From positions 62,001 to 126,000 of the forward strand of contig JBBPIG010000016.1 of NCBI GenBank assembly GCA_038040445.1: DNA of 64,000 bases, given 5' to 3'. The notes below the pieces were generated by a model. It ran no database searches. It was not told the origin of the DNA and saw only the letters and a list, made by a program, of their open reading frames with translations. This DNA comes from Acidobacteriota bacterium. GTDB taxonomy: Bacteria > Acidobacteriota > Blastocatellia > UBA7656. A program made the translations under genes and the position numbers. Shown piece after piece: positions 11,968 through 46,688 of this stretch (its first letter is position 1; every line of letters starts with the position of its first letter).

Positions 11968-12322
11968 GGGGGTGCCAGGTTTCGACGGGGGTACTCCGAG
12001 GTGAAAGATGCATACCGCGGCCCATGCACCGCGTTATCAAGCTTGGAAAAACACAATCGCGAATAGCGAACTAGCATTGGCTGCCTAATCTCAGCCACGT
12101 TTCCCCCGGCATCGCCTGTGTGCCGGGAAGAAGCGTAACTTTAGCAGGCTGCCCCGAAGGACCCGTGCTCAGGGGGCCGGAGGGTAAGATCAATCTGGGC
12201 TAGCTTGCCGTGATGCTTCGTTGCTTCCGCGGTCACGGCTGGCGAATCAAGAGGAAGCAACTAAGTATGTAGGTTCTTTCGCTGAGGGCTTCCGGACGAG
12301 AGTTCGATTCTCTCCACCTCCA
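11968..12322 (+). ncRNA. ssrA: Transfer-messenger RNA (tmRNA)
   Basis: tmRNA rescues stalled ribosomes and tags nascent proteins for proteolysis. The 5' end GGGGGTGCCAGGTTTCGACG and the 3' end GAGAGTTCGATTCTCTCCAC followed by CTCC and A form the tRNA-like acceptor: GGGGGTG (11968-11974) pairs with CACCTCC (12315-12321), including the G3-U wobble needed by alanyl-tRNA synthetase. CCA is not encoded (TTG follows). The tag frame is best read as codons 12041-12085 giving AWKNTIANSELALAA before TAA, ending in the expected ALAA; the resume codon is inferred. The length of about 355 bases and one-piece layout are usual. Confidence 0.95.
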
Positions 12323-44163: not shown

Positions 44164-44282
44164 CGACCGATTTGCGCGGATACCGATTCACGCCCCGCAA
44201 GTTGCAACCGTGCTTGACACCCGACCGCCAGTCGAACTAATGAGTACCTGGAAGTTATGTCTCTAGAGTGGAGGAAAAGAAG

Positions 44283-44750
44283 ATGGCTGTTGAAGTGGGC
44301 GATATGGCTCCTGACTTCGAGCTCGCGTCTCATTTAGGTGAGGGCAAGAAGGTCAGGCTATCCGACGTCCGTGGCAAGAAGAACGTATTCATTGCCTTCT
44401 ATCCGCTGGCCTGGACCTCGGTTTGAACAACGCAGATGCCCTCGTATGAGGCTGATCTCAGCCGCTTCCAGGGCTACGATACCCAGGTCCTGGGTATATC
44501 AGTCGATTCGGTTCCCTGCAACGCCGCATGGGCCAAGAGCCTCGGTAGCATCACCTACGATCTTCTTTCAGACTTCGAGCCAAAGGGCGAGGTCGCGCGA
44601 AAGTTCGGAGCGTATCGCGCGGAAGGCTACTCCGAACGCGCGCTGTTCGTCATCGATAAGCAAGGCAAGATCGTCTACAAGGACATCCACGAGATAGGCG
44701 AGCAGCCGGATATCAACGAGATCTTTAACGTACTGCGCAAGCTCGATTGA
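44283..44750 (+). CDS. Peroxiredoxin, probable selenocysteine protein (in-frame TGA codon 48)
   Basis: AhpC/TSA-family peroxidase, 155 residues if TGA 44424-44426 is read as selenocysteine. GGAGG (44270-44274) lies eight bases before the ATG. The start MAVEVGDMAPDFELASHLGE and IAFYPLAWTSV lead to the TGA, which is followed by TTQMPSYEADLSRFQGYDTQ in the same frame, then VLGISVDSVPCNAAWAKSLG and RALFVIDKQGKIVYKD. The TGA falls exactly at the peroxidatic position of PxxxTxxC. Sec-containing peroxiredoxins are an established family. A hairpin suited to SECIS function follows. The alternative is a Cys codon mutated to stop, giving a dead 47-residue product. Confidence 0.85.
44434..44458 (+). promoter_or_regulatory. 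SECIS-like hairpin inside the peroxiredoxin
   Basis: Stem CCTC/GAGG (44440-44443, 44448-44451) with apical loop GTAT, extended by G-C and by AGAT/ATCT (44434-44437, 44455-44458) across a small internal loop. The first loop base is G, 17 bases after the TGA. Known bacterial SECIS elements lie in this range and carry a G at the start of the loop. Confidence 0.65.
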
Positions 44751-44898: not shown

Positions 44899-45948
44899 TT
44901 AATTCGATCTTGTCTCGCTCTTCTGTTCGTGTAGTTTCTTCAGCAGCTCGCCTATCTTTTCCGACAGCTCCTCACCTCTAAGACCGGCTGCCTTAATCAC
45001 GCCGTCTTGATCGATCAGCACCGTGTGTGGGATCGCGTACACGCCGTACAACTGCGAGACCTTGTTCCGCCATCCAAGCCCGTCGTAGTACTGCAGCCAG
45101 GTGATGCCCTCTTCTTTCATGTAGGCGTCGAACTCCGGGCGATTTGAGTCGAGATTGATCCCTATCATAACGAACTGCTCGCCACCGAACTTCTTCAAGA
45201 TGGTTTTGATTTCGGGTATATCCCGCCGGCAAGGCAAGCACCAGCTTGCCCAAAAATCGAGGAGCACAACCTTGCCCCGAAGCTTCTCGAGCGAAAGTTC
45301 CCCGCCGGTGTGAGACTTCACCGCAAAAGATGGCGCGACCCTGGCATCCACCATCTTCGTATTGGCGATGACCGCGCGTGCCTGGCTTGCATCGCTCGAG
45401 GCGGGATCAAGTTCGAGATATGTTTTCAGTGCGGCAACGCCCTCCTGTTCCTTACCGGCCTTGATCAGAGCGAAGCCCAGATTGTAATAAGCCTTGACCA
45501 CTTTGCCCTTGCTCAACTCGATCGCGCGTTGAAGAGCAACCGCCGCTTGCTCGAACAACTCTTTCTCGTTTTGCAGATAAAGCACGACGCCCAGCACGTT
45601 GTACATCTCCGCTTCGTTTGGCGGCTTCAGCTCGGCGGCCTGACGAAAAGCAACGGCGGCTTCCTTCAGTCTCCCTAGCTGAAGATTGATCTGCCCGATG
45701 GACTGAAAGCATTCCGCGCATTTGTCATCGCGAAGTGCCGCGGCTCTACGCAACTCGGTAATCGCCTCCTCGACGCGGCCCTGCCGCACAAGCAGACGGC
45801 CGTCGGTGAGCGCCTTTTGGAAGTCATCGCTTTGCTCCGGGGCCGGCTTTGTCGAGGCTTCTTGAGCTAAGGCCGGCTGGTTGACCGCGCTCGTGGCCGC
45901 CAATGCGATCATCGAGAAAAATAAGATCGCGCGAGTTAACTTTCTCAC
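44899..45948 (-). CDS. TPR protein with C-terminal thioredoxin-like (TlpA-type) domain
   Basis: About 349 residues from a GTG at 45948 with GAGGAG upstream; the open frame extends to 46065 but the GTG directly precedes the signal peptide (KLTRAILFFSMIALAATSAV). TPR-like repeats span about 45-180 (EEAITELRRAAALRDDKCAE, LKEAAVAFRQAAELKPPNEA). The TlpA/ResA-type domain follows: LRGKVVLLDFWASWCLPCRR with C237xxC240, then EFDAYMKEEGITWLQYYDG and IPHTVLIDQDG. Probably a periplasmic disulfide reductase. Convergent with the peroxiredoxin. Confidence 0.88.
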   Translation of the reverse strand: MRKLTRAILFFSMIALAATSAVNQPALAQEASTKPAPEQSDDFQKALTDGRLLVRQGRVEEAITELRRAAALRDDKCAECFQSIGQINLQLGRLKEAAVAFRQAAELKPPNEAEMYNVLGVVLYLQNEKELFEQAAVALQRAIELSKGKVVKAYYNLGFALIKAGKEQEGVAALKTYLELDPASSDASQARAVIANTKMVDARVAPSFAVKSHTGGELSLEKLRGKVVLLDFWASWCLPCRRDIPEIKTILKKFGGEQFVMIGINLDSNRPEFDAYMKEEGITWLQYYDGLGWRNKVSQLYGVYAIPHTVLIDQDGVIKAAGLRGEELSEKIGELLKKLHEQKSETRSN

Positions 45949-46061
45949 AGACTGCTCCTCAGTCGCTCGGACACATTCGCACGTCGCGACTTTCTCAGAG
46001 AGAATTCTCAAAGCAAAAGCCGCAGGCCGACGCCATGCCGTATTTCTGACGCCAGGCTGAT

Positions 46062-46688
46062 TCAATTCAGTTTAAGCTCAACACCACGACTCGCCGGATG
46101 TGCAGAGTCCAGCTTGCTCACCACCAGCGCCAAACCGGCCCCACGTGACGCTTGGCTCGGCATCGAAAAGAACACCAATCCCTGACGCGACTGCCCCGCC
46201 TCAACCGGCGCCTTGACGTCGAGCGCGTACGCCGAGAAAGCCTCCAAAGATTCTTTGTACCCCGCCTTGCTGTAGGCTGAGATTTCATAGTAGGAGACCA
46301 GCCGCTTGAATGCTTGACGCTCGTTCATTGCTTTGAAGCTGCGGCCTTCCGCCGCGCGCATTTCGAAACGGGCGTTCTTAAGATCGACGCTCTCGCGGCC
46401 GGAGTTCGTGATCATTACTCGCACGGGCAAGACTCCGGCTAGAAGCAAATTCGCATCGAAGGTGTCATACAAGAAGTCTTCGTCGGTTACCGCCTGTGCC
46501 TGAATGCCGATGCTACCTGCCGAAGCTTTCGCCGCGTAACTCGCCGGCGGCAGTTCCGGCTGCGTTCGAACATTGAACGGCTTACCGCAACCGAAAGACG
46601 GCGCCGTAAACAAAACCAAGGCGCAGCCGCCCATCAGCCGAAGCAAAGATTGCCGCGGTGAATACCATTCAACGGATGTAGATGACAT
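46062..46688 (-). CDS. Putative lipoprotein, unknown function
   Basis: About 208 residues from ATG 46688. N-terminal hydrophobic stretch LMGGCALVLFTAPSFGCGKP contains a plausible lipobox (SFGC), so the mature protein would be lipid-anchored. The rest is beta-rich (NLLLAGVLPVRVMITNSGRE, LKNARFEMRAAEGRSFK), similar in style to secreted proteins with a transthyretin-like or Ig-like fold. It ends 113 bases before the TlpA-type gene and may share its transcript. Function unknown. Confidence 0.7.
   Translation of the reverse strand: MSSTSVEWYSPRQSLLRLMGGCALVLFTAPSFGCGKPFNVRTQPELPPASYAAKASAGSIGIQAQAVTDEDFLYDTFDANLLLAGVLPVRVMITNSGRESVDLKNARFEMRAAEGRSFKAMNERQAFKRLVSYYEISAYSKAGYKESLEAFSAYALDVKAPVEAGQSRQGLVFFSMPSQASRGAGLALVVSKLDSAHPASRGVELKLN

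Follow-up and report, generated by a model that had tools for sequence, protein, structure and literature searches.

A peroxiredoxin gene with an in-frame UGA in an Acidobacteriota bacterium: a probable selenoprotein with a putative SelB hairpin beyond the usual spacing

The locus and its predicted product

The window, a 64,000-nucleotide stretch of genomic DNA from a soil-type Acidobacteriota bacterium, holds a peroxiredoxin gene interrupted by an in-frame TGA. The features of this gene are as follows.

44270-44274, + strand: Shine-Dalgarno-like GGAGG, 8 nt 5' of ATG 44283
44283-44750, + strand: predicted Sec-containing AhpE-like peroxiredoxin gene, 155 codons plus stop TGA at 44748-44750
44424-44426, + strand: in-frame TGA, codon 48, in the place of the peroxidatic cysteine (homologue alignment)
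44434-44458, + strand: hairpin named in the initial annotation, not supported as a conserved element
44436-44750, + strand: truncated ORF of mechanical annotation, 104 aa, without the active site
44438-44474, + strand: H1, proximal hairpin (folding energy), a putative spacer or else a canonical SECIS; lower stem 44438-44442 with 44470-44474, upper stem 44450-44454 with 44459-44463
44479-44497, + strand: H2, distal hairpin and putative SECIS (covariation, covariance model, codon permutation); stem 44479-44486 with 44490-44497, loop GUC 44487-44489, loop G at +61 after the UGA
44517-44519, + strand: Cys79 codon TGC, candidate resolving cysteine in helix 3 (homologue alignment, predicted structure)

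As described in the initial annotation, a single frame extends from the ATG at 44283 to the terminal TGA, and TGA at codon 48 was the only interruption seen on translation. The same annotation had anticipated that automatic gene calling would start at 44436 and lose the active site. The mechanical ORF does start there, and the mechanical ORF list contained at this locus only the truncated 104-aa ORF and one unrelated frame. By inspection of the sequence, no Shine-Dalgarno-like motif was found upstream of the internal ATG at 44436. Selenoproteins are routinely missed in annotation because UGA is taken as a stop.

The read-through translation matched the Pfam family AhpC-TSA (PF00578) with an E-value of 3.1e-35, and an AlphaFold2 prediction based on an alignment of 42 sequences had a pLDDT of 95. 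In the predicted structure, residue 48 (TGA) lies at the start of helix 2 (residues 46-57), in the peroxidatic place. Mycobacterium tuberculosis AhpE (Rv2238c), a 1-Cys peroxiredoxin, has the same fold as the predicted window protein; it was superposed by Foldseek at a TM of 0.92-0.95 over the whole protein with 33-35% identity, and phmmer gave an E-value of about 1e-21. The two differ in that Rv2238c has Cys in the peroxidatic place, whereas the window gene has the putative Sec codon there and Cys79 in helix 3. Across 40 Sec and 48 Cys homologues, Pro41, Thr45, residue 48 and Arg119 were found to be invariant or nearly so, and we take these to be the PxxxT/SxxC(U) active site and the conserved Arg. 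The predicted product is thus, by its domain, modeled fold and active-site residues, an AhpE-like peroxiredoxin. Candidate resolving Cys79 is present in 15/40 Sec homologues compared to 37/48 Cys homologues, and its rarity among the former suggests that their selenenic acid is reduced by another route.

A bacterial selenocysteine peroxiredoxin (Prx, COG1225, TxxU) was reportedly characterized by Soehling et al. in 2001. Sec peroxiredoxins are an established bacterial family in the excerpted accounts (PMC1794560, PMC1088965, PMC9312934), and the known members resemble the window gene in placing Sec at the peroxidatic position, in the T/SxxU motif and in the presence of Sec machinery; unlike what is described here for the window gene, the excerpts of these accounts mention no distal hairpin. 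The protein is, as a Sec peroxiredoxin, a member of a family already known. Two other features of the window were recorded. The convergent neighbour at 44899-46065 (- strand) encodes a TPR protein whose C-terminal domain is thioredoxin-like (AhpC-TSA/Redoxin) and which has an ordinary CxxC, and a tmRNA gene with the tag peptide ANSELALAA lies at 11968-12322 (+ strand).

Predicted selenocysteine decoding and codon 48 across relatives

The initial annotation had tied selenocysteine decoding to the presence of selA, selB, selD and tRNA-Sec, and saw a complete genome without selB and selC as evidence against it. All four were detected in the host assembly (6.75 Mb, 100% complete), with scores of 576 bits for selA, 359 bits for selB and 352 bits for selD, and with a tRNA-Sec of anticodon UCA; a complete genome of the organism thus carries both selB and selC. 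When the genomes reached through the collected loci were compared, selB was above the cut-off in 18/19 TGA-Prx genomes versus 13/31 Cys-Prx genomes (Fisher p = 2.0e-4). Within the class, co-occurrence is uninformative because selB is nearly universal there (50/58 genomes). Its score was above the cut-off in 13 of the 16 genomes with a close TGA-Prx, and below it in G023, G046 and G052, which are 92, 89 and 73% complete and consist of 480 to 1240 contigs.

A second tRNA-Sec-like RNA was found in the host at G000:C5:159193-159283 (- strand; L002 1501-1591, - strand). It scored 65.4 bits, above the Rfam cut-off, and carries the Cys anticodon GCA; its discriminator base in G000 is U. It is kept in one genome of the same genus and one of the same family (relatives L211 1465-1555 and L212 1482-1571; genomes G001 and G003); ARAGORN, when applied to L002, did not report it. 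This RNA resembles the selC* tRNA-Cys, some with UCA anticodons, that have been described from Firmicutes, Thermodesulfobacteria, Nitrospirae and Proteobacteria, with Acidobacteriota not among the groups named in the excerpts of that source (PMC7609411). Such a match to the tRNA-Sec model, in the host and two other genomes, would be the starting point for an alternative in which a tRNA-Sec-like (selC*-type) cysteine tRNA decodes the UGA as cysteine. We regard this as highly improbable, as the GCA anticodon does not pair with UGA, inspection by eye of the ORFs of at least 150 aa listed beside the GCA tRNA showed no additional selB or cysS, the regular tRNA-Sec with UCA is present, and selB follows TGA-Prx.

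Codon 48 was compared across 156 related loci, obtained in three rounds of collection (110, 16 and 30) and including some genes twice because the collections overlap. By this approach, TGA was found at 84 loci and TGC/TGT at 72, with no other codon at any of the 156, and chance is thereby excluded as the origin of the TGA. Carriers in cultivation include Ammoniphilus resinae and Schinkia azotoformans (loci L074 and L079). The expectation of the initial annotation that homologues would carry Cys or TGA here was therefore borne out, and the decayed relatives with other stops that it had considered were not encountered, no further decay being seen except in L026, one relative listed with an additional TAA. 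A pseudogene or sequencing error, in which the TGA would be a real stop or an artefact, has nothing in its favour beyond the stop itself. Independently assembled genomes from several phyla share this TGA, with a protein that is conserved before and after it, the RNA structure downstream is under selection (see below), and this explanation is refuted because the TGA/Cys alternation is conserved; we consider it next to impossible. A general reassignment of UGA to a sense codon was rejected, since this gene also ends in TGA and codon 48 alternates only with Cys.

On the basis of these sequence comparisons, the window gene almost certainly encodes a selenoprotein. UGA codon 48 would be read as Sec by the SelA, SelB, SelD and tRNA-Sec of the host, and Sec48 would serve as the peroxidatic residue of a selenium-dependent AhpE-like peroxiredoxin.

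A quick tree of 126 rows, built on few columns and with many unresolved forks, placed the window gene in a group where 51 rows carry TGA and 3 carry Cys. These three appear to stem from two replacements of Sec by Cys (one for L070 with L075, another for L027), and selB was retained in all three genomes. In L070, a Cys gene inside the Sec group, the distal hairpin H2 is still recognisable, as if Sec had been replaced recently and the hairpin left behind as a fossil. The class also has a second Sec peroxiredoxin paralogue (SecB; L037-L049, motif FYVLAFTGGU), which carries a classical proximal hairpin, UAUCA-G[G/U]N-UGAUA, with its loop at +24.

Hairpins downstream of the UGA

The bSECIS model is said to come from a 2005 paper by Zhang and Gladyshev. 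In the excerpts of a source that sets it out, the model asks for a G among the first two nucleotides of the loop (mostly G[G/U]), a loop 16-37 nt from the UGA, a stem of 4-16 bp and an MFE of -7.5 kcal/mol or lower, and some bSECIS are noted not to fit it (PMC13188914). The published rules of bSECISearch were applied here through our own scripts. The hairpin at 44434-44458 with a GUAU loop, which the initial annotation had put forward as the SECIS, folds on paper at -6.2 kcal/mol, short of the published limit, but did not hold up as a conserved element: its pairs were formed in 76.3% of cases across 39 homologues, versus 76.9% in column shuffles. This candidate was ruled out by its energy and by the lack of excess pairing over shuffles, and two other hairpins, H1 and H2, were found instead.

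Folding was assessed by permuting synonymous codons within each gene, such that protein and codon usage were kept, and refolding the product. The 40 Sec genes had a z of -1.98 at codons 53-64 and of about -1.8 at codons 62-76; by contrast, neither region stood out in the 48 Cys genes. After thinning to below 80% identity, the mean z for H1 was -2.42, with p<0.05 in 16/21 Sec genes versus 5/39 Cys genes, and that for H2 was -2.17, with p<0.05 in 14/21 versus 3/39. The SecB paralogue (8 thinned genes) had the first hairpin only (z -1.73, compared to +0.64 for the second). Thus, H1 and H2 are both linked to Sec, and the Cys homologues are largely without either.

H1 folds in nearly every Sec gene, with pairings that drift from gene to gene. 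In the register of the window gene it showed no covariation (54.9% paired versus 54.5% in shuffles), and a fixed-register pairing was rejected for H1, as paired cells were no better than shuffled ones; because such covariation is absent, the role assigned to H1 rests on folding energies. In the window gene, H1 has an alternative loop, GAUCUC, at 27 nt after the UGA, with -14.4 kcal/mol including flanks. It agrees with the published bSECIS rules in distance, loop G and MFE, its loop starting with GA and not with GG or GU, and the lax form of these rules was satisfied by H1 in 16/21 thinned genes.

H2 presents the reverse of most H1: its 3-nt loop starting GU and its 8-bp stem agree with the bSECIS consensus in shape (loop GUC, -10.6 kcal/mol), but the loop does not start until 61 nt past the UGA, with H1 in between, so that 60 nt separate UGA and loop where the rule asks for 16-37 nt. 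Its eight pairs were formed in 98.7% of cells in 39 aligned genes, and compensatory changes were found in 3/8 pairs, including pair 58-72 (A-U 23, G-C 15, G-U 1) and pair 63-67 (G-C 24, A-U 8, G-U 4). The covariation score of H2 exceeded that of 500/500 shuffles and of every slid version, and H2 was the sole structure found by RNAalifold. By a loose criterion, H2 was recognised in 56/74 distinct Sec genes, including those of Bacillota and Myxococcota, versus 6/72 Cys genes. The loop falls on codon 69, which is Val (GUN) in 40/40 Sec versus 10/48 Cys proteins, Leu being dominant in the latter; in the wider set, GTN was present at this codon in 61/74 Sec versus 18/72 Cys genes.

A covariance model trained on the peroxiredoxin H2 alone (R2) recovered H2 in the window at 44477-44499 with an E-value of 5e-12, its palindromic antisense at 0.002 and nothing else below 0.2. 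The model matched two Bacillota Sec-Prx (E-values of 1e-8 and 3e-10) and L096 of Myxococcota (4e-5). Among 61 Cys-Prx, one match was in the right place (L070), and a stray match to L116 (E-value of 0.002) was at another position. In genomes of the phylum of L096, with E <= 0.01 on the coding strand, R2 matched 12/19 Sec loci, one of which (L231) is the same gene as L096, compared to 1/11 Cys loci (L238, E-value of 3e-4). The AQVLG peptide itself favours the H2 palindrome in GC-rich genes, and this counts against H2. As a genome-wide selenoprotein finder, the strict H2 pattern was rejected: it had 6 matches versus 6 for a reversed-pattern control, with no enrichment, and only Prx and selD had a fitting in-frame TGA.

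Position of the hairpins and the candidate SelB site

Sec genes were sorted by a proximal class (stem of at least 5, loop of 3-6 starting G[G/U], 16-37 nt from the UGA) and a distal class (H2; at least 6 contiguous pairs, loop GUN). Among 73 distinct Sec genes, 19 had the proximal hairpin only, 40 had H2 only, 10 had both and 4 had neither, such that the two were mutually exclusive in 59/73. Three genes with neither (L025, L067 and L073) have an H2 with a mismatched closing pair, and the fourth, L047, belongs to SecB and has a single mismatch. By contrast, 64 of 72 distinct Cys genes had neither, with 6 fitting the proximal rule and 2 the distal; the Fisher p of 8.6e-7 is descriptive only because the classes were drawn up with the data in view and the genes share descent. 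All three arrangements occur in Myxococcota, where L222, L224, L237, L239 and L242 are proximal only, L234 and L240 are distal only, and L096, L232 and L243 have both.

Distances were also computed as shortest paths along the predicted folds, on the assumption that the first 11 nt stay unpaired for the ribosome. By this measure, the effective distance from the UGA to the loop G of H2 was 26.2 (sd 1.3) in 39 genes, compared to 61 by sequence, and the predicted folds of SecB and selD gave 25.0 and 25.9, respectively. Synonymous redraws of H1 already gave 30.6 (sd 3.9), which weakens the argument, as does its reliance on a graph measure of predicted folds. These modeled distances fit a division in which H1 is the spacer and H2 the hairpin recognised, and a loop G read at a constant effective distance of ~25 nt would suggest that SelB measures distance through the folded RNA and not along the sequence.

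H1 could itself be the working SECIS, because it lies at the canonical distance and satisfies the lax bSECIS rules in most thinned genes. SelB would then bind H1 in the classical manner, with H2 as an accessory acting in ribosome pausing, in stacking on H1 or in mRNA stability. The Sec-specific folding energy of H1 and its alternative loop, which has G first, speak for this arrangement, as does the strong GGA-loop hairpin at +21 that accompanies H2 in the three Myxococcota genes with both. However, the H1 loops of H2-bearing genes are mostly without GG or GU (40/50), the H1 pairs drift and do not covary, and H2 alone has the tip of the selD hairpin (described below) and fixes Val69. We therefore hold the classical arrangement to be rather unlikely, though it is the most serious competitor.

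Recognition at H2 is the reading that we prefer, and H2 is probably the SelB site. For the whole reading, of a true selenoprotein with putative SelB recognition at a distal H2 beyond 16-37 nt, we estimate a probability of about 0.68. SelB would recognise the GU loop of H2 in the same way as that of the hairpin following the UGA in selD, and H1 would fold out the intervening 36-37 nt, bringing the H2 loop effectively to ~26 nt from the UGA. The SECIS may have moved downstream within one gene family, of which proximal-only, double and distal-only genes exist today. We lean slightly towards a second bacterial SECIS architecture, in which a spacer hairpin folds between the UGA and a SelB hairpin ~60 nt downstream that has moved there within a family. 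No description of this distal-hairpin architecture was found in the excerpts of PMC13188914, nor, as far as seen, of the two-hairpin arrangement in openly licensed PMC literature, where excerpts on Acidobacteriota selenoproteins and distal or tandem SECIS gave nothing usable beyond a 2006 survey (PMC1794560); further background is in PMC12013277 and PMC1242214, also seen as excerpts.

If this reading is true, the Gln-Val-Leu peptide of these enzymes is dictated by RNA, and the contrast at Val69 between Sec and Cys proteins would be an RNA signal shaping protein sequence. A SECIS-based finder with a window of 16-37 nt would choose the wrong hairpin here, or none. If a recognition hairpin can sit 60 nt off behind a spacer, the spacing rule belongs in the folded RNA, and the natural proximal, double and distal series would provide a clean set of constructs by which the manner in which SelB spans the gap becomes testable.

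The selD of the host (L016; G000:C21:108415-109344, - strand) is itself a selenoprotein gene, with an in-frame TGA in the context MVSCAG-U-AAK and a hairpin, GCUCAG-GUG-CUGAGC, whose GUG loop is 33 nt after the UGA. Among 31 selD loci, 21 had TGA and 10 had Cys. Most TGA selD genes fold into a GUN-loop hairpin with the loop at +34; in one family, several genes form another fold whose GGUCG loop is closer to the UGA. Over all 21, the stem covaried in 6/7 pairs with 84.4% of cells paired, and codon permutation gave a z of -2.47 for TGA versus -0.67 for Cys genes. The selD hairpin of the class and H2 have in common a CA-R-GUN-Y-UG tip and a covarying stem, and the hairpin is absent from Cys selD; it sits 27 nt closer to the UGA than H2, and agrees with the bSECIS model at 33 nt, whereas H2 is outside the range. 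R2 matched 5/21 TGA selD at E <= 0.03 and 6/21 at E <= 1, compared to 0/10 Cys selD. The 15/21 UGA-selD loci missed at E <= 1, a point against H2, include that of the host; at these loci the hairpin was recognised by folding and pattern and not by R2. A further folding signal was observed in TGA selD at +76 to +102 after the UGA (z -1.53, p<0.05 in 8/15; z -1.44 and 5/15 when the same genes were repeated), with a z of -0.04 in Cys-type selD.
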